A stretch of 64,000 nucleotides of DNA, taken from Pseudomonas sp. 31-12. GTDB taxonomy: Bacteria > Pseudomonadota > Gammaproteobacteria > Pseudomonadales > Pseudomonadaceae. This document shows positions 8,372 through 34,858 of this stretch, piece after piece; the first letter of the stretch is position 1, and every line of letters begins with the position of its first letter. The translations under genes were made by a program, and so were the position numbers. Under the pieces are notes generated by a model. It was not told the origin of the DNA and did not search any database. It saw only the letters and a program-made list of their open reading frames with translations. The stretch is from the NCBI RefSeq assembly GCF_003151075.1, contig NZ_CP029482.1:5208001-5272000 (forward strand), written 5' to 3'.

Positions 8372-8801
8372 GATGTAACTCCAAAAGAGGGATCTGAATG
8401 CCGACGGCCATCGCCTGCCCTAGATACCCAGCATGTTTGATGTAGCTGAATACTTCGAATCGACTGGCTACCGAGCGAGGGCCGTCGTCGAAAAGGCGAT
8501 TACGAAGATTGAGTAAGCCGATCTCATCAGGGACGTTTTCCGAAAATAGCACCAGGTGCCAACCACCACTTCCCTCCCAGCATTTCTCATCGGATAGCGG
8601 ATGGGGAACGACATACGCCTCTTTAATCGGCAACACCTGCTGAGCGATAGCTAACATGAGTACGAAAGGACCTGCGTTTTCGTTGGTAAGCGAAGCGCGA
8701 AGCTGTTCAAGTTGGACCGCGAGATTGGAGATCTCTAAAGCACGCATCTGCTTGCCAAGAGCTTGGATCTGATTAAGGAATTTTTCATGATCCCTAGACA
8801 T
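8364..8801 (-). CDS. Hypothetical protein downstream of the relaxase
   Basis: This 145-aa protein starts with ATG at 8801, one base inside the relaxase stop (TAATG), so translation is coupled. Residues 1-50 are predicted coiled coil (FLNQIQALGKQMRALEISN). The remainder looks like a small globular domain with a Trp-rich strand (CWEGSGGWHLVLFSENVP). No family is recognised. Close coupling to the relaxase suggests a role in DNA processing or its control. Confidence 0.65.
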   Translation of the reverse strand: MSRDHEKFLNQIQALGKQMRALEISNLAVQLEQLRASLTNENAGPFVLMLAIAQQVLPIKEAYVVPHPLSDEKCWEGSGGWHLVLFSENVPDEIGLLNLRNRLFDDGPRSVASRFEVFSYIKHAGYLGQAMAVGIQIPLLELHHD

Positions 8802-11800
8802 TAGATCGATCTCCTGTGGCTATAATTTGCTTCATCTTCGTCATACGAAGGTTGGGTTTCTGGCTGGGCAACCGGCCTTATTGTCGGTTCTGCCAGAGCA
8901 ACGGTTTCAGAATTCTGCACTTCTCGCTGGGCGCTCATCGCTTCGATACGCTTCAGGGCTTCGTTGGGATCTTCGCCAAGCTGCAGACCAACACGCTCGC
9001 GAACATCCTCGATCTGCGCGCCAGCGAACTGGCTAACGAGTCGAGCATGACGCTTCACCGTAAGGCTATCGCCGCCTTGGTCACGATCATAAGCAAGCGA
9101 AAAGCGCTGGATTTTATAGCGCTCGGCCAGGGCGATGATTGCCGCCTCAGTGTTTGGACCAGGTTCGCCAGTTGTGCCGATGAACAGGATCCGCTGCCGC
9201 TCTTCTGCGCTAGCCAACTGGTAGATGCTCAGGGTGTCGACACCGCCCTCGCTGAAGCGGATTTCGGTTGGGTTCGCGCATTTCGGGTTGGCGAGGTAGA
9301 CACCTTTTTCAGTTTCTGTCGTAAAACCCTTGAACTCACGTCGTTCGCCATTGATAACCTGAGCGCCGCGGTACTCATACCCGCAGAACTTGGCATTAGC
9401 ATCAATGTGAGGAAACACAGCGGAGCCATGCCGGCTCGTACGCCAGCGCGTTTCGGCCAACACTTCGGACGAGATACCTCGCTCTTGGCTCAGATAGCTA
9501 TCACGGCGAGACATGAAACCGAAAGTGCGGTAGTGGTTTTCCGTGCTGGTTGCGATTGTCTCTAGGCGCTCGCGTTCCTTCCTCTGTCGCGACTCTTCGC
9601 GTACCCGATCAATACGGGCCTGCTCTTCCGCTGATTTACCCAGCGAAGGCAGAACGCCCCCCTGAAACGCACGAATATCGTCCTTGGCCTGGATGAAGGT
9701 GCCGCCACTGGCTTCCTGATAGAGCTTGAAGATGTCACCGCTCTTGCCCGAATGGCGGTCATGCCAGACCCAATTGTCATCAGCGGCTTGGTAAATGTCG
9801 TATTTCCCTGAGCCGTTGCGGAAAACAGCATGTCCTTTGTACGAGGCCTTCTTGTCGTACTCCATGCCCAGGTGAGCAGCGTAGTCGGTCAGGTCAACGT
9901 CGCGTTTCATCGCGGCGACTTCACGGGCGTCTGATGCTTTGTCGTATTTCATCGAGCGTGCTAAAGCAGTACCAGGAACCTGCCGTCGCACTCGACCAAG
10001 AGGCTGTCGATCAGCGAGTGTGTTATCGGGCAATACACCCTCACGTCCCCTTCCGGGACCTGCTGCCAGATAGCATGTGGACAACGTACGCAGACAGTCT
10101 GAGGGAGTTCGCCCTGCAGGGCGTTTAATGTTGCCGAGCGGACGGGAGAAGGCTTCTTCGTTTGCTGCGTCACCGGCGCCGGCGGCGCGGTCAAATTGGC
10201 CGAGGCTGCCGGCGACTCGCTGGCCTGCGGCGCCGGCTCGGGATTCGGGTAGGGAAACTCCATCGGCGGCGACAGGTCGTCCATCAACGCGGTGGTATCG
10301 GCCGAGACCGGCAAGGGTGGCAGGTCGGACAGGATCAATTCGGACATAGCGGGCCTCCTGAGGCTCAGGCTTGATCAGTTTCAGCTTCGTAGTGAATACG
10401 GCGGTCTTCATTCCCTGAAGCGTTTCGCAAAGGTCGCGGCGCTGCTCTAGGGGAACGGATGAGCCGGGGTTTGTCCATCGCGCAACTTCTGCACCTGGAG
10501 CGGGGTTTTCTGCAGCTACAACGGCAACGCGGCGGGCATCAGCCGGCCAGGTCTGTTCGTCGATGCGAAGGTCGACGATTTCAGCGCCGAAGGCCTTGGC
10601 GTGCTCGATCTCAACCTCTACGGGCGGCAGGACGGTGACGGACTGGCGGGGTTGTTCTTGGGGCTGTTCCTTCGCCTGGCCGGGAAACTGGAAAGGTGGA
10701 GAGGCCCCCTGGAGACGATCGAGGACGGAAAGTTTCTGAGGGGTCAGCCTAAACGGCTGGCCGGTGTGCACGGATGCGCGAATTGCTTCGCGAGCCTGAG
10801 GCATCAGGTCGAGAGCGTTCTCTTTATAGACGAATTCCGCCGTCGACTTCTTGAATGGGAGCCAGTTGGCTTCACTCAGGTACGTTTTGCACCCGTGGAT
10901 TCCGCGGGTATAGGCGACATACCAAGCCTGCAGAGAAGCGTAGGATGACGGCAGGTAATAAGACTGCATAACAGTCATGCCCTGCGCTTTGTGGCCGGTC
11001 ATCGCATAGCCGTGCTGCAGCGACTCGTATTCACTGGCATTGATCTTGACCGTCCTCCCATCGTCCCGGGTGATCGTGAACAGAATGTCCTCGATCCGCT
11101 CACCGTCGACTTCGCGGGTGACTCGCTCGATACCCAGCACGGTGCCAAGGTCCCCGTTGTAGACCGGTTCATTCTGAGAGTCCTTGGCCGTTTTGCGCAA
11201 AAGCAGGCGGTCACCAATCGCAACCTGGATCGTGAATCGCTCGCCGGGCAGTACCTCGTTTTCGATGCTTACACTGCCTACAGCACTCAATTCACCACGA
11301 GCGAATCGGGCATCACGAATTTTGTCGTTGAGCGCCCGTACCTGTTCGTTCGTATCAGTGAGGACAAGAATCTGGGACCAGTCCAACTCACGGACAACGC
11401 TATCCCTCCCTGGCAGGCCAGCTTTCATGTCAGCGAAAACATCGCCAACCAACTCGTCCGCTTCGTTCACGCCGTCAGCAAAAACCTTGAGCTGATCATC
11501 GCGCTGCATGTGGCGGATCGCATCGCTCACCTTTCCTTCATAAAGGGCCTGAGCAGTAGGCCTGAACTGGTCGACTTGGCGGGCGATCGTTTCGATCTTG
11601 GCGCAGCGATCCCCAACAGCGTCGTGCAGAAGGCCGAACAATGCGGCGGTCTCCACTGCGTCATGCTGGTTTCTATCACCAACGCAGATCAGGCGGGCGC
11701 CTGCCTGGTGACAAGCAACCACCAGGTTATGCATCTGGTAGGTGTCCAGCATGCCGGCTTCGTCGCACACGACGATATCGCCGTGTCCGATGAGATCCTG

Positions 11801-13690
11801 ATGTTTGAAACGCTGCCCAGCCTGCTGCGCGGCAAGCGCGTTCTGGTGCTTGATCAGTAGTGAATGGACAGTCTGGGCCTGAATACCGGTCGACTTAGCC
11901 AGCTCCGTTGCCTGCTTGTTTGCAGGCGCAACGCCAATTACACGGCGCCCCTGCGCCTTGAAAACTTCGGCGTATACGCGGAAGGTCGGCGCCAGAGTGG
12001 AAGACTTACCAACGCCAGCGGCCCCCTTAAAGAATGTGTACTGACCTGGCCCAGTCAGATCGTAGGCAGCTTGGCGCTGCTCCTGAGTGAGCCGAAAAGG
12101 CTTTTCGCCTGGCTTCTGGGTCGCCTGTTTTTCCTTCTCATAATCGTCAATCACCTCGTCAACAAAGGCACGGTCAACACTCCAACTCGGATCATCGAGA
12201 CCAGCATGCACCGCCTTTACGCAGTCGGCTTCAAGGGTGAAGAGCTCCTTCGTCGTGTAACGCTTTGGCGGCATGCGGCCGTTTTCGTCCGGCTGCTGGG
12301 GAATTTCGATGAGGCCGAGTTGTTTGTAAATCTCCGACTTGGTTGCTTCGATTTCTTCAAGGCCACCTTTGCCAATGGTCAGGTGCGCGGCCGCGGAATC
12401 GATCGCGAATTCATCGATCACGGTGGATCCGCGGAACACCATGCGCTGCAGCTCAGCGAGACTCGGTGCCTGGAGATCTTTGGCGGTTGATGCCTTCAGC
12501 TCGACAGTGGGAATCGCTTCGCGCCAATGACCATCCAGGCTGTCGCCTAGCTCGATGTCCTTCGCATCGCGGCTTCGGACGGCGATAGCCTGAGCTGCAG
12601 CTTGGCCAGAGGTGGCCATAGTCTTCTTCTCTGCCTGGATCTGCTCGCTGCGCTTGGAAAACTCGGCGACGAGTTCCTTCGAAACTGAAGCATCGTTGAG
12701 ACGCAGGCCATGCCCGCTCCAATCAACCACCATCGCAGAAGCCAACTCGGGCAGGCGTGCCTGGAGACGCTGATAAAAGGCCACGTCGACGACTGCACCA
12801 AACTCCTTCTGGCTCTTGTACAGCCATCCCGCATCGAGGGTCAGGAACTTGCCGTCGACGGTGCGAACGAAATTCGGCCGTTCCAGGTGTACGTGAAGCT
12901 GAGGATCAGGGAAGTCCTGGCCGGGGGCGCGACGTGCTGTGCAATGGGCATATGTCAGAGTGACGCACTCGCCGGTTACAGATTCTGCGCCCTGAGCGCC
13001 TTCACGTCCGCGAATCCGGCCAGTACGGTGCTCGCGCTCGATCGCATCGTTCACAGCCCCCATCATGCATTCCTGGATCACGCGACGGGTTTGGTCGTCG
13101 GCCTGTGCCCAGTAGATGCTGATGGACTTCTGCAGGCTCACACACGAGCTGAAGCCGAGAACAGGATCCTTTGCCGATTTTTCTTTCCCGTCCTTCTCCA
13201 GTCGCTCCAGGTCGCCGGCGTCGAGGTGCTTTTTCGAGGACGGGTTTGCCTTCTTCGATTCAGCTTCCTGAATAGCCTTGTCGATGGCCTTTTGGCGCTT
13301 CTCATCAAGGAACGCCTCTCCGGTGCGTGGGTTGATTCCACGGAAAAGAGCAAGGTAATCACCGTCCAGGGGATGCTCACCGAGGCCCAGCTTGTTGGCC
13401 AACGGGCCTGCAATACCCGATGCCAAAGTGTCGTTGCCGGACTTGTGGTAGTAGTCCTCTCGCCCTGTGCCCTGGTCGCCCTCCACCTGACTGACGATAG
13501 CGGCGATCTCGGCGTCGACTTTCGCCAGTTCGGCAGCCATTACCTCATCTGTCACGCCACGCTCTGCGCCGAGATCAATGCGCTTCTCACGTAAGGCCTG
13601 GAGCTCCTTCAGCTTCTTTTCGAAGTAGGAAGCCTTGGCCGCAAAATTACCGGCCGTGGTCTTCTGGTTGCTCATCCCGTAGTGACTCAT
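8801..13690 (-). CDS. MobF-type relaxase-helicase with a C-terminal Toprim-like region
   Basis: A 1629-aa conjugation initiator. The N terminus has two tyrosine motifs (KASYFEKK near residue 22; DYY at 79-81) separated by about 50 charged residues. A histidine triad follows near residues 245-265 (AHCTARR, then DPQLHVH), giving the HUH nicking fold of TrwC/TraI. A RecD-like helicase follows, with Walker A GAAGVGKSST near 560 and Walker B VVCDEAGM near 640. A linker around 1030-1240 leads to a C-terminal part with KRDVDLTDYAAHLG, RFSEGGVDTLSIYQLA and SLAYDRDQGGDS, resembling DUF3991/Toprim domains of primase-like proteins. The enzyme should nick oriT, stay bound to the strand and unwind it. The start (ATG, 13690) overlaps the accessory gene by four bases. 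Confidence 0.93.
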   Translation of the reverse strand: MSHYGMSNQKTTAGNFAAKASYFEKKLKELQALREKRIDLGAERGVTDEVMAAELAKVDAEIAAIVSQVEGDQGTGREDYYHKSGNDTLASGIAGPLANKLGLGEHPLDGDYLALFRGINPRTGEAFLDEKRQKAIDKAIQEAESKKANPSSKKHLDAGDLERLEKDGKEKSAKDPVLGFSSCVSLQKSISIYWAQADDQTRRVIQECMMGAVNDAIEREHRTGRIRGREGAQGAESVTGECVTLTYAHCTARRAPGQDFPDPQLHVHLERPNFVRTVDGKFLTLDAGWLYKSQKEFGAVVDVAFYQRLQARLPELASAMVVDWSGHGLRLNDASVSKELVAEFSKRSEQIQAEKKTMATSGQAAAQAIAVRSRDAKDIELGDSLDGHWREAIPTVELKASTAKDLQAPSLAELQRMVFRGSTVIDEFAIDSAAAHLTIGKGGLEEIEATKSEIYKQLGLIEIPQQPDENGRMPPKRYTTKELFTLEADCVKAVHAGLDDPSWSVDRAFVDEVIDDYEKEKQATQKPGEKPFRLTQEQRQAAYDLTGPGQYTFFKGAAGVGKSSTLAPTFRVYAEVFKAQGRRVIGVAPANKQATELAKSTGIQAQTVHSLLIKHQNALAAQQAGQRFKHQDLIGHGDIVVCDEAGMLDTYQMHNLVVACHQAGARLICVGDRNQHDAVETAALFGLLHDAVGDRCAKIETIARQVDQFRPTAQALYEGKVSDAIRHMQRDDQLKVFADGVNEADELVGDVFADMKAGLPGRDSVVRELDWSQILVLTDTNEQVRALNDKIRDARFARGELSAVGSVSIENEVLPGERFTIQVAIGDRLLLRKTAKDSQNEPVYNGDLGTVLGIERVTREVDGERIEDILFTITRDDGRTVKINASEYESLQHGYAMTGHKAQGMTVMQSYYLPSSYASLQAWYVAYTRGIHGCKTYLSEANWLPFKKSTAEFVYKENALDLMPQAREAIRASVHTGQPFRLTPQKLSVLDRLQGASPPFQFPGQAKEQPQEQPRQSVTVLPPVEVEIEHAKAFGAEIVDLRIDEQTWPADARRVAVVAAENPAPGAEVARWTNPGSSVPLEQRRDLCETLQGMKTAVFTTKLKLIKPEPQEARYVRIDPVRPATLAGLGRYHRVDGRPVAADGVSLPESRAGAAGQRVAGSLGQFDRAAGAGDAANEEAFSRPLGNIKRPAGRTPSDCLRTLSTCYLAAGPGRGREGVLPDNTLADRQPLGRVRRQVPGTALARSMKYDKASDAREVAAMKRDVDLTDYAAHLGMEYDKKASYKGHAVFRNGSGKYDIYQAADDNWVWHDRHSGKSGDIFKLYQEASGGTFIQAKDDIRAFQGGVLPSLGKSAEEQARIDRVREESRQRKERERLETIATSTENHYRTFGFMSRRDSYLSQERGISSEVLAETRWRTSRHGSAVFPHIDANAKFCGYEYRGAQVINGERREFKGFTTETEKGVYLANPKCANPTEIRFSEGGVDTLSIYQLASAEERQRILFIGTTGEPGPNTEAAIIALAERYKIQRFSLAYDRDQGGDSLTVKRHARLVSQFAGAQIEDVRERVGLQLGEDPNEALKRIEAMSAQREVQNSETVALAEPTIRPVAQPETQPSYDEDEANYSHRRSI

Positions 13691-22522: not shown

Positions 22523-22751
22523 AGGACATCAACCCATCCGGCTCTGGTGAGCTATTGCCAGCCCCAGCAGACCGTCGTCTGACGGCAGCGCAGTTTCAGA
22601 CCCTGGCTGAGGTGTCCGCAGCAGTCAGCATGAGGCCGATATCGCCAAGGTCCAGCAGTGGCTGGGGCATGCCAATATCAGTACCACTCGCATATAAGAT
22701 CGGCGAGCTTCCAGACCGGAAGACTCGCCGAAATATAAAGTGCGGTATTAG
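22519..22751 (+). pseudogene. Tyrosine recombinase (integrase) remnant, internally deleted
   Basis: The first 35 or so codons (ATG at 22519) match the start of a phage-type integrase (RRLTAAQFQTLAEVSAAV). The frame then shifts directly to the integrase C terminus, read from about 22631: HEADIAKVQQWLGHANISTT, then RI, a TAA, then DRRASRPEDSPKYKVRY and TAG at 22749. The whole core-binding domain and most of the catalytic domain are missing. The TAA stands exactly where the nucleophilic Tyr of TTRIYDRR should be. The gene is dead on both counts. Confidence 0.82.
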
Positions 22752-24931
22752 ATGCCTCCGCCCTGCGGGGGCTGTGGCGGTCGAAATGGGGTGATCGCCC
22801 GGCTTATAGATCCCGTCAGAATCTGCCGGGTGCTCATAGAAAGCCCCCCCATAATCCCCTGCATCGAGTTCTCGTAAGGATTGAGGCCCGGTTCGCTGAG
22901 CGAAATCATATTGAGCACACTACGGGGAAATGAGGTGATCAGTTGAGCACTTGTGACAACTACGTTCCAGGACAGCAGGATAATCACTACGACCATCAGC
23001 AATCCGCCGATCAGAATCCCTCCGAGGCTTTCCAGCGGACGGCCGACATCGGCGACACCAGGATCAAACATCCCCCAAAGTCCCATAGCCATCGCTTGGA
23101 CCATTGCCAGGCCGACAGCGCTAATCACAATCGCTGCTGCCAGGCCACCCACGGCCAAAGCAGGATAGAGAAAGATGAAGATGAAGGCGTTCCACCCTTT
23201 GGCCGACAATTGAGAGGTGTGCTCTTCGCCTTTCGGTGCGGCCATACCAGCCGACCAGAGCGTCACTCCGAAAAAGGTCGTAGCAACGGCTACGAGCCAG
23301 CTGATTGCCCCCATCAGTCCATAGATTGCAAACAATAGAGGCATCACGTAGCCAAGTAACCCGCCGGAGACAATCATTACTCCTCCGATTGCTTTTGGCA
23401 GCGTCCCATCAGTGATTGAGTTAAGACCGGGGATATATTTCGCGATCGTCCCGCCCGCAAAAAATCCAATGCCAGTGCCAACGAGCGAGCGTCCCCAGGA
23501 CGCAATGTTGTGGATATTCTGGTTCGAGGGCCCGGTCGTGGACTTGAGGATGTCGAGCGAAAAAACTCTAGCCAGCAGCGACTTTTCAGCACCAACATTT
23601 CCAGGTTGAATCTGTGCCAGGGCTTCGCTTTCGACCAGTTTTGAGAGCGAGTCGCCCGGAGTCATCGCCGAAAGCGTGGATTTTGGCATCATCTGTGCGG
23701 TCGCGCCCTCTGCGTAGCTAGCAGCACGTGAGAAGTCGCTCGCTGCGCGCAACACGAACGTGCCGCCGAGCATCCAACCCCAGTTCTTTACTTCGTCAAA
23801 ATACGCTGCACTACGAGCAGCCTGGTCAGTTGCAATCGTGGTGCTGATGGTTTGCTCAACCATGGTTTTGTACCAGTCTGCGGACTGACTAGCCCATGTG
23901 ATACTTTCCTCAAAAAACGTCTTCGCGTCCCCTGCCCCCACAGTCCCGTCCCGAGCCAAAATCGCCTGCTGGACGGCATGCTCGACCAGACCGATCCAGA
24001 TCTGACGCTGAGCCGAGGCTATACCGACCTCGATAGAGGCGGCATTGTTTTTCTTGACCTGTTCATACTCATCACTGCATGTCATTGACGACAACCAACC
24101 GGATTGGCAAAACCACCCCTCGGTTTCCATCTCCCCCTCGACCGTACCAGTAACCGCGTCGGGATCGATCAATCGTTGGACACCCATGCTGACAGCACGG
24201 GCCAATTCGTCGCTCGGAGGAATTAACGGTATCTGTAAAGATCGGCCCGCGTTTGCGATATACACGCCTGCAGCAGCGGCTTCAGTCGACCCCGCAGCTG
24301 GATACTTACCGCCGTAAACCTGATTCCATTTTATTTTTAAAGCCTCATTCGCAAGGTCACGACTCGATAGCGAATTTAATTGATCGTTCGGATCTCGGAA
24401 TATTTTCAGACCAGCGAGTTGGACCGCTGAGATTTTCCAACTGTTTAGCATGTCCAAAGCGACTTTCGCGTCGACTTCAACTCGGAATTTCGGATCACTA
24501 AACAGGTTATGGCGATGCATCAGTTCAAATGCATTGTGTTGCATCGTGTCGCCGAATTCGGCCGCAGATTTGGAGACACCGGCCACAAGAGCGTGTCCTG
24601 GCGTCAAAGTGATCTGAATCCCGCCGGCACTAGAGACAGGAATAACCGGTGCAATTAGAGTCAAGGCGAAGATCACCCGCAGCGGGTAGAAAAAAGCCTC
24701 GTTCCCATCTTTTGCACCGAAAAAATTCCCGTTGTTTTTGAGTCGGAAAATTCCGAGAAATATAGCCCAAGCCGTGAGGGCGCCGAACATGGCTAGACCG
24801 AGTGTTGAAAAAGCGGATGCAAATATCGTCAGTGGTGTTACGTCCTGAGCACCTATTCCTGGGAGTTCTGCCGCATCAAATATCCAACGTCCGAAAAGCC
24901 ATGTCAGTACAAGTGCGGAGAAACTATTCAT
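22748..24931 (-). CDS. DotA/TraY-family conjugal transfer membrane protein
   Basis: This 727-aa inner-membrane protein has hydrophobic segments at the N terminus (about 3-20, 35-62, 83-105), a long periplasmic loop (about 110-470) with a Cys pair (WFCQSGWLSSMTC), and a block of five or more segments near 485-680. This is the DotA/TraY architecture of IncI1 and Dot/Icm systems. TraY is needed for conjugal transfer in R64. It starts with ATG at 24931, overlapping the TraX-like gene by four bases, as traX-traY are ordered in R64. Its last codons run into the integrase remnant, so this marks a recombination junction. Confidence 0.85.
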   Translation of the reverse strand: MNSFSALVLTWLFGRWIFDAAELPGIGAQDVTPLTIFASAFSTLGLAMFGALTAWAIFLGIFRLKNNGNFFGAKDGNEAFFYPLRVIFALTLIAPVIPVSSAGGIQITLTPGHALVAGVSKSAAEFGDTMQHNAFELMHRHNLFSDPKFRVEVDAKVALDMLNSWKISAVQLAGLKIFRDPNDQLNSLSSRDLANEALKIKWNQVYGGKYPAAGSTEAAAAGVYIANAGRSLQIPLIPPSDELARAVSMGVQRLIDPDAVTGTVEGEMETEGWFCQSGWLSSMTCSDEYEQVKKNNAASIEVGIASAQRQIWIGLVEHAVQQAILARDGTVGAGDAKTFFEESITWASQSADWYKTMVEQTISTTIATDQAARSAAYFDEVKNWGWMLGGTFVLRAASDFSRAASYAEGATAQMMPKSTLSAMTPGDSLSKLVESEALAQIQPGNVGAEKSLLARVFSLDILKSTTGPSNQNIHNIASWGRSLVGTGIGFFAGGTIAKYIPGLNSITDGTLPKAIGGVMIVSGGLLGYVMPLLFAIYGLMGAISWLVAVATTFFGVTLWSAGMAAPKGEEHTSQLSAKGWNAFIFIFLYPALAVGGLAAAIVISAVGLAMVQAMAMGLWGMFDPGVADVGRPLESLGGILIGGLLMVVVIILLSWNVVVTSAQLITSFPRSVLNMISLSEPGLNPYENSMQGIMGGLSMSTRQILTGSISRAITPFRPPQPPQGGGI

Positions 24932-30680: not shown

Positions 30681-30703
30681 GCCCGCCTCGTGCGGGCTTT
30701 TTT
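30681..30703. terminator. Intrinsic terminator next to the alpA remnant
   Basis: GCCCGC-CTCGT-GCGGGC followed by six T residues on the plus strand. On the minus strand the same stem overlaps the stop of the AlpA remnant and would end its transcript. Confidence 0.85.
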
Positions 30704-30890
30704 ATGCCCGTTTTTGCGGAGCGTGTCGCTGCTGCGCGTAAAACTCACAAATGTCTGCGAGGTTCCAGCGAATTGCGCGACCGAAGTGCAACGGCTGTGG
30801 AAAGGCGGGATCGTTTTTCGATAGTCGATAAAGCGTTTATCGTGAAATCTTAAAGATCTCGCAAACTTGCTCAGTAGTTTGAATTTGCAT
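30702..30890 (-). pseudogene. AlpA/Cox-like excisionase-regulator broken by an in-frame stop
   Basis: From ATG at 30890 the frame reads MQIQTTEQVCEIFKISR, then TAA (30837-30839), then TLYRLSKNDPAFPQPLHFGR and AIRWNLADICEFYAQQR, ending at 30702. This is a complete AlpA-type winged helix-turn-helix protein of 62 residues with one nonsense codon at position 18. The codon there is often Gln (CAA to TAA is a single change). AlpA-like proteins switch on the integrase or excision of islands, so its loss would lock the element in place. Confidence 0.85.
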
Positions 30891-31264: not shown

Positions 31265-34200
31265 ATGCCCCCGCGAACAGAGAGCCACAGGATGCAGATG
31301 AAGGCTGAAGAAAAGGTTGTTTCGCCATCACAGTTCATGCGCCAGATCCGACCTGAGCTCTATTCGGACTCAACCTCTAGCGTCAAGCATCAGCTCAAAG
31401 CCGAGGTCCTGTCGCATCACCTGGACACCATCACCGAGCGTAACCAAACGCATGACTTTGAACTGTTCTGCCGCAAGCTTTGCGAACGGACGATTTGTCC
31501 AAACCTAAGGCCGGCAACTGGCCCGGAGGGTGGCGGTGACAGCAAGGCCGACACCGAGACCTCTCCGGTCTCCGATGAGATTAGCAAGCTCACCTTTATC
31601 GGTATGGCCAATAGCGGCAGCGAGCGATGGGCTTTCGCCTTCAGCGCGAAAAAGACGTGGGCCGACAAAGCGAGGTCGGACGTGGATGGAATCGTGGCCA
31701 CAGACCGCGACTACAAAAAGATCTTTTTTGTGACGTCCAGAGCCGCGCGTGCGAAGGATCGAGCCCGAGTGGAAGATGAACTCACCCGTAAGCACGGTGT
31801 TCAAGTGATCATCCACGACCGTGCCTGGATCATCAATGAGGTCATCGATAAGAATCGCCGCGATCTTGCGTTTAACTATCTGAGGATCGGTGAAGAAACG
31901 AGCGATCTTGATCTTGGCCCATCTGATTATTCGCGAAAGCAGCAACTAGCCGACATAGAGCAGGAACTTGCGGACCCTTCTACGTTTGTCGGGATGAAGA
32001 TGCAGCGCGCATCCGAAGCGCTTGTGGCAGCAAAGCTGGCGCGAGAGCTGGAACTGCCGCGAACTGACGTCGACGGCAGGTTTGTTCGGGCCGTTCGCCT
32101 GGCGGACGATGGAGGAACGCATCGGCAGCAGCTCAACGCGCGCTACGAGTCGCTCTGGACGGCGTTCTGGTGGTTCGACGACATCAAGGCCATCGTCGAC
32201 GGCTATGATGGCTTTGAAGCCCTTGTCATCGGAAACGAACATGCGACTAATCTTGAGATGCTGTGCAACTTGGCGCAGTTATTATTCAATACCGTCATTC
32301 ATGAGCACCTCACGTCGGAGCAAGTCCGACTGGAACCCCGAATTGCCCGGTTATCATCAAGGCTTGCCGAACTAGCGAGCGACAGCAGCCGGCCAAACAA
32401 TGCGCTGGAGGCAAAGACTTCGCTGCTGACCATCCAGCTCAACGAAGCCCTGATTGCCGGCGAGCCAGAACGAATTTCCTCGCTGTGGCCACAGTTTGCA
32501 GACATCCTCGTCGAGGCTGACGGCTTGGGGGAGTTTGATGCTAAACGCCTGGTTAGGCTAATTGAGGTGTTCGGCCAGGTCGCCGGCAAAGACCGAGGTT
32601 ACCGGAACCTTGTGGACCAACTCTCCGACTTCGTGTCTAAACGTACGGGGGAGGTTCAAGGCGCGGTGGTATTGCTCAATCGCGCCAAGCAACTCGACTT
32701 CGACGAAAACATGGAGATGATCCGGCTTCTTGGCAAAGCCGCCCGGCTGCTTTCCAAAAAGGAGCATGCGGAAAACCTGGTTGACGCCCTGCTTCAACTT
32801 TCGGTCGCTTACCAAAGCGCTGGTTTACTCTGGGCGGCACGTGCGAGCTGCACCTCGGCCGCCGCGACCTTGTTCATTGAAGGTGAAGAAAACGGCGAAC
32901 TCCCGTCAACTCTATTTCCGACGCTGATGAATGCGGCATGGCAAGCGGTCCAGCTTAAGCACTTCCCTGAGTTGCTGGGAATGGTTCAGATCGCGCGCGG
33001 ATGCCTGAACGCTTTGCCACTCGACGACAAGTCGAAGAGTCGTGCCGCTGCGCAATTGAAGGACTTCGACATGGTCCTAGCCTGTCAACTGACGAACCTC
33101 TCCTCGGAGGAGATACCGCGACTAGAATTGATCCCTGATATCTTGGAAGGGCTGGACCTGAACATCAGCAGGTTCACGCTGCTATACCTGCTGGGATATG
33201 AGGACGCTCTGAGGCAGGAAGGATGGGTTCCCGAAAGCGAATCTCCCAAGGACGTACAGAGTTTTTTCAATCAGTTGGCGGGGCAGCCCGCTGGCGACGC
33301 ACATTGGCGACCATCAATTTTCAACGACCAGAATACTCAGGTGTTTGTCACCTCAGTACTTGGCGTTCAGGTAAACGTCATACATGAGCCCACCGACACA
33401 GGTATAACCGTCGCCGAAGCCATTGCTGGAACAGTCGAGGCGTTCTTCGCGACCGCGTTCGAACTGGGCGCTTTCGCTCACGCGGAGCGTTTCGATGTCA
33501 CAGTTGTCGATGCGAGCATCGCGCGTTTCGAGGTGACGGCTGATTTGGACCGTATGAGAGCGACGGTTCGCTGGCCCAATGACGTGTTTCCCGGGACCCC
33601 GTCGGTGCATGGCGACTTTCTCTCCATGTTGCTGGAAGTCGCCGCCATCATCTTTTCAGCGACTTGCACTGCGAAGAACTTCAAAGAAGCGGCTGATCGG
33701 CTATTCAAGACAGACGCAGCAATGGAACGCGTTGCGATGATTGGTTCACTGTGCATCAGCCGCCAGCGCATCTTCGACGGCGTGTCGCGCCTGAACTCCT
33801 GGGATAAGCGTTCACCGAAAAGGTTCGAAGCCAAGCTGGAAAGGCCGCAGGTTAGACGGGAGCCGCGACCAGCCAGAGAAGAAACGCAAGCCAAAGACGA
33901 GATCCTCGATGAGAGGGAATTCCCGACGTTGACAGACCACCGCAATGTGAAAGTCCGATCGGTGATCGATGTCCACCTCTGGGATCGCGCTGGCTGGATG
34001 GGCATAGCTTATGGAGTGGTTAATCCCATGGCGCCGCCCTTCATTGCGATAATGTTTAAGGATAGGGATGCGGCCGTAAAAATATTTGAGCGGTGGCGAG
34101 AGCGATTCGGGACAGTAGACAAGGAGGAGGAAATCCACGTAGGCATTGTTCGCCGGTTTTCCATCGAGCATCCGACGCATTACGGAATGGTCATCACGTC

Positions 34201-34492
34201 AAAGATCCCGAGGGATCAAGGGGATCTACAAGTTGCGATGCTGGCGTCGCGCTCCCTGACCATGGAACCTGCTGATGACGTCAACCTCACAAGGTTTTTG
34301 GACGACTACAAGAAGGCTGGTGCTTATCTCTTAATGCCAGTTGTAATGGTGCCTGGGCAACCACCGCAATTCATCGACGGAATCTATCTGCTTAAGAGAT
34401 CGTTGCAGGTGAAGGACGCTTCCGATGTTGGCCCAAATGACCTAGAAAACATGTTTCTTCAGCCTCGGGGATTTGGGCACAAGCACACATGA
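31265..34492 (+). CDS. Large lone protein with PD-(D/E)XK-like nuclease N terminus; candidate defence gene
   Basis: A 1075-aa protein starts with ATG at 31265 behind AAGGA (spacing 7). Residues 50-160 resemble a restriction-endonuclease fold: helix with Glu66 (HDFELFCRKLCE), then GPEGGGDSKADTE (Asp92/Asp96), then WAFAFSAKKTW (Lys129), the order Glu, Asp, xxK of PD-(D/E)XK enzymes. Residues 200-650 are long helices that could be repeats. The C-terminal third (about 850-1060) contains further mixed domains. There is no P-loop, signal peptide or membrane segment. It stands alone beside the tRNA island end, where defence genes often accumulate. Anti-phage or nucleic-acid cleavage activity is inference; no exact family is recognised. 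Confidence 0.7.
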   Translation: MPPRTESHRMQMKAEEKVVSPSQFMRQIRPELYSDSTSSVKHQLKAEVLSHHLDTITERNQTHDFELFCRKLCERTICPNLRPATGPEGGGDSKADTETSPVSDEISKLTFIGMANSGSERWAFAFSAKKTWADKARSDVDGIVATDRDYKKIFFVTSRAARAKDRARVEDELTRKHGVQVIIHDRAWIINEVIDKNRRDLAFNYLRIGEETSDLDLGPSDYSRKQQLADIEQELADPSTFVGMKMQRASEALVAAKLARELELPRTDVDGRFVRAVRLADDGGTHRQQLNARYESLWTAFWWFDDIKAIVDGYDGFEALVIGNEHATNLEMLCNLAQLLFNTVIHEHLTSEQVRLEPRIARLSSRLAELASDSSRPNNALEAKTSLLTIQLNEALIAGEPERISSLWPQFADILVEADGLGEFDAKRLVRLIEVFGQVAGKDRGYRNLVDQLSDFVSKRTGEVQGAVVLLNRAKQLDFDENMEMIRLLGKAARLLSKKEHAENLVDALLQLSVAYQSAGLLWAARASCTSAAATLFIEGEENGELPSTLFPTLMNAAWQAVQLKHFPELLGMVQIARGCLNALPLDDKSKSRAAAQLKDFDMVLACQLTNLSSEEIPRLELIPDILEGLDLNISRFTLLYLLGYEDALRQEGWVPESESPKDVQSFFNQLAGQPAGDAHWRPSIFNDQNTQVFVTSVLGVQVNVIHEPTDTGITVAEAIAGTVEAFFATAFELGAFAHAERFDVTVVDASIARFEVTADLDRMRATVRWPNDVFPGTPSVHGDFLSMLLEVAAIIFSATCTAKNFKEAADRLFKTDAAMERVAMIGSLCISRQRIFDGVSRLNSWDKRSPKRFEAKLERPQVRREPRPAREETQAKDEILDEREFPTLTDHRNVKVRSVIDVHLWDRAGWMGIAYGVVNPMAPPFIAIMFKDRDAAVKIFERWRERFGTVDKEEEIHVGIVRRFSIEHPTHYGMVITSKIPRDQGDLQVAMLASRSLTMEPADDVNLTRFLDDYKKAGAYLLMPVVMVPGQPPQFIDGIYLLKRSLQVKDASDVGPNDLENMFLQPRGFGHKHT

Positions 34493-34781: not shown

Positions 34782-34858
34782 TGGTGTCCCAGGGCAGGTT
34801 CGAACTGCCAACCTTCCCCTTAGGAGGGGGATGCTCTATCCAATTGAGCTACTGAGAC
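34782..34858 (-). tRNA. tRNA-Arg (CCT)
   Basis: A 77-nt cloverleaf with encoded CCA. The acceptor is GTCTCAG/CTGGGAC, the anticodon loop CTCCTAA (anticodon CCT) and the T-loop TTCGAAC. It marks the border between accessory DNA on its 3' side (lower coordinates) and core genes on the other side. This tRNA is a well-known insertion site for Pseudomonas islands. Confidence 0.96.

Follow-up and report, generated by a model that had tools for sequence, protein, structure and literature searches.

Within a 6.73-Mb single-contig genome, that of Pseudomonas sp. 31-12, a stretch of 64,000 nucleotides (positions 5208001-5272000, here called the window) harbours on its forward strand an open reading frame (ORF) of 1075 amino acids (aa) at 31265-34492. 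This ORF lies next to a tRNA gene, at the end of a genomic island, and is the subject of the present analysis. The features of the locus are the following.

31265..34492, forward strand: whole gene, 1075 aa, from the ORF call, relatives and motifs; alternative start at M10 (31292)
31391..31897, forward strand: PD-(D/E)XK-type effector module, residues 43-211
31913..33280, forward strand: TPR-like alpha-solenoid, residues 217-672; predicted local distance difference test score (pLDDT) of the model mostly above 85, TPR and other solenoid proteins filling the Foldseek and VIA lists
33335..33751, forward strand: pseudo-peptidase of M1-aminopeptidase-like fold that lacks HEXXH, residues 691-829; M1 entries dominate the fold lists
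33947..34417, forward strand: C-terminal alpha/beta domain, residues 895-1051, from the structure model
about 30702..30890, reverse strand: alpA-type regulator (named by eye) with one in-frame stop; an uninterrupted copy lies in the G032 island
34782..34858, reverse strand: tRNA-Arg(CCT), the integration site, with the attachment (att) repeat 34784-34809 inside, from the tRNA call and a repeat search

The ORF is a real gene: relatives of similar length exist (993-1090 aa at 60-99 % identity among the 120 relatives listed), its own genome carries one copy, and a 99 % identical protein is encoded at the same place in the island of another genome of the genus (G032). The alternative start M10 is the first residue in 14 of the 20 other rows of alignment A1. 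The preliminary description of this DNA had placed the gene between a dead alpA and tRNA-Arg(CCT), and the ORF, the in-frame stop of alpA and the tRNA position confirmed this; 289 bases separate the gene from the tRNA. A 26-base repeat of the tRNA end occurs in two genomic copies 53.5 kb apart, the tRNA copy at 34784 and the other outside the window. Near the far copy an integrase is encoded that matched phrog_1 (E 6.7e-20) and had no Pfam match at 1e-5. In G032 two exact copies of the repeat flank 33.6 kb, and a third copy has two mismatches. Furthermore, 13.9 kb of P. fluorescens PfAR1, including the gene and the tRNA, aligned at 98.6 %. The repeat pair, the integrase and the matching G032 and PfAR1 loci therefore indicate that an integrative element carries the gene as cargo, at its tRNA end. 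The same island also encodes a TrwC-type relaxase, a TraX protein and a Replicase-family protein.

A restriction-type fold had been proposed for the N terminus on the basis of a series of Glu (E66), GPEGGGDSKADTE and FSAKKTW, all of which are present. Structural comparison supports the fold: in the VIA list of the structure search the N-terminal module superposes on residues 1-177 of Avs4, and as modelled it would have the PD-(D/E)XK core of the Avs4 N terminus. Conservation was analyzed in 56 diverse rows (alignment A2), in which E66, D92, K94, D96, S127, K135 and D139 are invariant, and in 70 wide rows, which add Nostoc, Cohnella, Agrobacterium, Mycobacterium, a phage record and others. The row with a gap at D92, D96 and K135 is a Pantoea sequence in which the N terminus is absent. 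The residues of interest are listed here.

31460..31462, forward strand: E66, candidate for the active-site Glu, located in the first helix; 56 of 56 rows in A2, 68 of 70 wide rows (Lys and a gap in the other two)
31538..31552, forward strand: D92-x-K-x-D96, candidate metal-binding Asp residues; both in 56 of 56 rows and in 69 of 70 (one gap)
31649..31651, forward strand: K129, canonical-looking lysine, not conserved; among the 56 rows K occurs 44 times, M 8 times, E and Q twice each
31667..31669, forward strand: K135, invariant lysine, more likely catalytic; 56 of 56 rows and 69 of 70 (one gap)

A search with residues 1-190 of a Mycobacterium relative as query returned 337 proteins, of which the best 120 were analyzed; all organism-named members of this set are actinobacterial. 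E66, D92, D96, E98, K135 and D139 are kept in 120/120, while position 129 is Gln in every one of them. K129, earlier suggested as the catalytic lysine, is thus unlikely to have this function, and the conservation pattern makes K135 more likely as the catalytic lysine of the family. D96 was well chosen for the proposed mutation, but D92 shows the same invariance. Two profile alignments with Mrr_cat placed D92 and D96 differently, leaving ambiguous which of them corresponds to the catalytic Asp of Mrr. The module is probably a nuclease. It could, however, be a non-cutting PD-(D/E)XK-like domain or cut RNA, with RNA cleavage or binding as in effector-TPR-GreA/B-C-PIN proteins, for which a standalone architecture made up of exchangeable N-terminal effectors, TPRs and C-terminal domains has been predicted (PMC8195603). 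The varying canonical lysine position and the S or T standing where PD-(D/E)XK enzymes usually have Glu or Gln would fit such a function. The invariance of D92, D96 and K135, with E66 nearly so, the fold match to the Avs4 N terminus and the lack of a GreA/B-C or PIN match in Pfam argue against it, and we regard it as rather improbable.

The remainder of the protein had been described as carrying no P-loop, and indeed no Walker A pattern was found in the 1075-aa protein or in any of the 70 aligned rows; the TPR-like solenoid and the M1-like domain had been missed. The HEXXH zinc motif is absent from residues 690-850 in all 70 aligned rows, beyond residue 650 in all 131 P records (the window protein included) and beyond residue 500 in all 104 full-length Mycobacterium-type relatives. 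In the C-terminal alpha/beta domain W906, A909, W911, G913 and Y973 are invariant among the 56 rows, as is H892 just before the domain. Mean conservation is highest in the module (0.72) and lower in the two solenoid halves (0.62 and 0.59), the last domain (0.55), the M1-like part (0.46) and the linker (0.39), which agrees with a division into an effector module and a sensor.

The strongest reason for this division is that the module is shared with signal transduction ATPases with numerous domains (STAND proteins). Four of the 120 relatives of the Mycobacterium protein (P0169, P0200, P0232 and P0236; 1340-1381 aa) have precomputed NB-ARC (PF00931) and WD40 (PF00400) matches. Their Walker A motif (GAGGFGKT) has its first residue at positions 209-233, no more than about 50 residues away from the module; a Walker A pattern occurs in the stretch after the module in 6 of the 120. 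P0200, named Streptomyces zagrosensis, shares 60 % identity with the Mycobacterium protein over 193 residues and no other significant segment. Between the Mycobacterium protein and the window protein, in turn, identity is 28 % over a stretch of 173 residues (single comparison, E 4e-14), and the N-terminal effector is thus homologous to one found on a STAND protein. For the body of the Mycobacterium-type relatives a profile was built from 60 of the 104 full-length sequences; it is colinear with the solenoid and M1-like part of the window family (hhalign score 95.4, probability 96.6 %, 513 columns), against scores of at most 26.5 for 30 column shuffles and 24.3 for the reversed profile. One body type therefore extends from Pseudomonas to Actinobacteria, and the module behaves like an exchangeable effector, since it occurs on this homologous body as well as on NB-ARC/WD40 STAND proteins. 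The earlier statement that the protein is not Avs-like holds for the ATPase, but not for the N-terminal module, of which a homologue is fused to NB-ARC/WD40 STAND proteins.

The protein belongs to a widespread bacterial family without a name, whose members are patchily distributed and mobile. Scans with Pfam (E up to 1), NCBIfam, PADLOC and PHROGs gave no match, in line with the preliminary description, and single and profile searches of PDB sequences gave nothing credible, with no Avs4 chain among the matches listed. The family is named in no title or abstract found, in a literature coverage that was partial and included few subscription journals or bioRxiv, so that novelty in print is unproven. 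The whole protein retrieved at least 713 relatives at E up to 1e-3 (7996 candidates scored) and residues 20-215 retrieved 1849, 120 being examined individually in each case. When genomes were scanned with two peptide anchors, 71 loci were obtained, mostly in Proteobacteria and including Runella (Bacteroidota), Desulfobulbus (Thermodesulfobacteriota) and an Acidobacteria fragment. Relatives are encoded on 14 plasmid records (Nostoc, Cohnella and Mycobacterium among them), 6 of which are typed conjugative, and on one metagenomic phage record. They occur in 6 of 95 genomes, the own genome included and one of the six holding an 81-residue piece only, and the N-terminal profile matched in 3 of 398 genomes of the phylum, one match being divergent and beyond the family (G134, E 1.1e-5). 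Stops or frame breaks interrupt the matched stretch at seven of the 71 loci (L013, L023, L035, L036, L066, L067 and L078), and other loci are cut by contig ends. The broken relatives at these seven loci resemble frequently lost accessory genes. A two-gene form, considered for P0121, P0122, P0123 and P0127 (684-747 aa) and for the split copy of L035, was rejected in favour of truncations and frame breaks; three of the four proteins run into unrelated tails, though at different places, and the fourth just ends early. The rare occurrence, the partly plasmid-borne location and the broken copies make it very unlikely that the protein is a housekeeping repair or regulatory protein sitting in the island by chance, although some relatives do have housekeeping-looking neighbours.

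Neighbouring genes were analyzed as 306 mechanically called ORFs of at least 200 aa within 5 kb, from 58 loci (12 of the 71 were dropped as near-duplicates or tiny contigs). PADLOC scans at E up to 1e-10 of three batches of neighbours matched 142, 51 and 117 models, of which the best 25 each were taken. Among these are HamA, HamB, CBASS cyclase, E1-E2 and endonuclease, SAVED-HNH, pAgo, type I restriction-modification, Lamassu LmuA/B, AbiEi/AbiEii, GajA, PD-T7-1, PD-T7-5, DRT and dGTPase, and once, in the third batch, GajB. For the control, 20 regions away from the loci were taken in 20 of the same genomes; the 111 ORFs used, out of 156, stem from 14 of these regions and matched 49 models. GajB accounted for 23 of the best 25, RTasHel and CARF_2OG for the others, a pattern as expected from a single UvrD-type helicase and one further protein. 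Counted by ORF, co-location with defence genes is thus above the control (306 neighbour against 111 control ORFs), and the expectation that homologues lie near defence genes was borne out. Of the 12 plasmid records examined, four carry a clearly named defence gene near the relative: DUF1837 with a DEAD/DEAH helicase, as PADLOC describes HamA/HamB, 252 bases downstream; AbiEii and NACHT; Shedu with a restriction endonuclease; and SAVED, here beside a fragmentary relative. An S8 peptidase and ATPase pair lies beside the relative on Burkholderia plantarii and Bradyrhizobium plasmids (L091:5203-8901, L146:1943-5404) and is possibly a separate defence pair. No clear defence gene was found nearby in the other seven plasmid records. 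Because relatives often lie among virus-defence genes, the gene probably constitutes a one-gene defence system.

Pfam matches among the neighbours in the two batches scanned with Pfam included phage integrases (4/104 and 3/110) and resolvases (3/110), and no integrase or resolvase was among the best 25 of 134 control families. These genes, together with the island and the plasmids that carry the family, would suit a nuclease by which an island or plasmid targets incoming plasmids or integrative and conjugative elements rather than phages. The many anti-phage systems among the neighbours speak against such an anti-plasmid or element-competition role, to which we give a low probability. No conserved partner gene was found among ORFs of at least 120 aa, smaller ORFs not having been clustered. 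The most frequent neighbour family, judged by eye to be an integrase, occurs at 13 of the 71 loci, seven of which represent one Sphingopyxis-type site. Without a shared partner of this size the protein is most improbably the toxin of an addiction module with a nearby antitoxin, in spite of its mobile location and nuclease-type module; a small antitoxin could be missed. Two other neighbours recur. A gene of 589-611 aa (262 aa in L021, near a contig end) occurs in L019, L021, L022 and L031, at most 206 bases from the family gene in three of the four. In eight loci, mostly of the Sphingopyxis type (L046, L050, L054, L058, L060, L061, L062 and L065), the relative is preceded at a distance of about 95-110 bases by a 622-aa-type gene, of which two members in batch A6 match CoiA_N.

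A defence role of the 1075-aa protein is very probable. It is fairly likely that it represents a single-gene immune (conflict) protein of mobile islands and plasmids, free of a nucleoside triphosphatase (NTPase), whose C-terminal body senses infection and releases the nuclease; for the sensing mechanism itself the chances appear even. In the resting cell the PD-(D/E)XK module (E66, D92/D96, K135) would be kept inactive by the long C-terminal body. The solenoid, the pseudo-peptidase and the terminal alpha/beta domain would bind a signal of infection, with a phage protein, a peptide end or an altered host complex as the most likely candidates. Binding may rearrange or multimerise the protein, so that nuclease modules act jointly and cut DNA, by which the phage would be stopped, probably at the cost of the cell.

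Several observations weigh against this reading. The PADLOC association was counted per ORF and not per locus, the control is about a third as large and is represented by the best 25 of its 49 models, and the pAgo matches of two batches share an E-value and stem from the near-identical loci L029 and L030. Some neighbourhoods look like housekeeping regions (L009 lies beside genes that by eye are gyrB- and recF-like) or hold plain plasmid genes, as in Cohnella and Pantoea. With respect to the fold, Avs4 is a single row at rank 42 of a solenoid-filled VIA list and is absent among the 50 Foldseek rows listed, and the active-site loop 84-119 was modelled mostly at pLDDT below 50. Profile similarity to 22 Mrr_cat domains is weak (23.3 against at most 16.8 in 30 shuffles; 22.5 for the wider rows, where 100 shuffles reached at most 20.7, probability 7 %). 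Furthermore, of 24 tested units with a low model score and remote defence homology, six of them PD-(D/E)XK, one gave defence (PMC13092281); a nuclease fold alone is therefore poor evidence for defence.

If the interpretation as an immune protein is correct, a large unannotated family of at least 713 proteins, with members in Pseudomonadota, Thermodesulfobacteriota, Bacteroidota, Cyanobacteriota, Bacillota and Actinomycetota, represents a defence system of a single gene in which infection is sensed with no NTPase involved. A more specific model, at present unlikely, is that of an ATP-independent receptor: the dead aminopeptidase-like domain, borne on the TPR solenoid, would trap peptides or the ends of phage proteins and so turn on the fused nuclease directly. 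Such a protein would resemble nucleotide-binding leucine-rich repeat receptors without the NTPase switch, with an effector common to NB-ARC receptors, across at least six phyla.

Other parts of the island deserve mention. Its backbone combines a DotA/TraY-like protein (22748-24931, reverse strand; TIGR04346, E 1.3e-16, below the cut-off) with a protein in which the TrwC-type relaxase is followed by AAA helicase-like domains (8801-13690, reverse strand). The other island end, left of the window (L084, G000:C1:5188101-5208000), harbours a chemosensory cluster with, by Pfam, a methyl-accepting chemotaxis protein, a CheA-type kinase with a CheW domain, CheB and CheR; a PAS-GGDEF-EAL protein and some ORFs that by eye are response-regulator-like belong to it as well. 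Inspection by eye of the ORF list of the 33.6-kb G032 island showed none of these genes. This island carries between its replicase and TraX-like genes a gene pair of 174 and 132 aa (L086:9498-10432, reverse strand), by eye a GNAT-type toxin-antitoxin, that had no window counterpart by blastn.

Among known systems, Avs4 (AVAST type 4) is likewise a large single protein on whose N-terminal nuclease-type module that of the window protein superposes. Avs proteins are STAND NTPases, and the nucleases of Avs1-Avs4 reportedly cut phage and host genomes upon recognising phage terminase or portal (PMC12931631), the portal also being given as trigger of Avs4 (PMC12724215). The window family, in contrast, lacks a P-loop pattern, has no Pfam or PADLOC match and did not bring up an Avs4 chain in any sequence-search listing. 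Mrr_cat (PF04471) shows by eye the same order of motifs (FE, a G-rich D motif, lysine, a T(T/S)S strand and a D-containing end); membership of the Mrr family is not claimed, because the profile comparison is only weak and no Pfam match to PF04471 was obtained. The M1/M61 aminopeptidase catalytic domain is resembled in fold, but its HEXXH zinc site is absent in the relatives checked. Inactive peptidase domains have been discussed as possible peptide binders in conflict systems (PMC7159879), nuclease-protease pairs of other kinds have been described (PMC12799240), and E. coli PD-(D/E)XK proteins were validated with DefensePredictor in a study that mentions TPR in a figure legend (PMC13092281). 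The predicted effector-TPR-GreA/B-C-PIN conflict system, with restriction endonuclease among 13 swappable N-terminal effectors (PMC8195603), is likewise a standalone gene with a variable N-terminal effector and a TPR middle, and is thus kin in design, though not necessarily in descent. The window protein differs in ending in an M1-like and a further alpha/beta domain; no GreA/B-C or PIN domain was found in it by Pfam or among the fold matches listed, where M1 is dominant, although either could still be present. The NB-ARC/WD40 STAND proteins P0200, P0169, P0232 and P0236 possess a homologous N-terminal module with the same invariant residues, whereas their body consists of NB-ARC and WD40 and that of the window protein of a solenoid and a pseudo-peptidase, without NTPase. 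If the window protein is indeed an immune sensor, this homology of the effectors would make NTPase-driven and NTPase-free control of the same kind of nuclease directly comparable.

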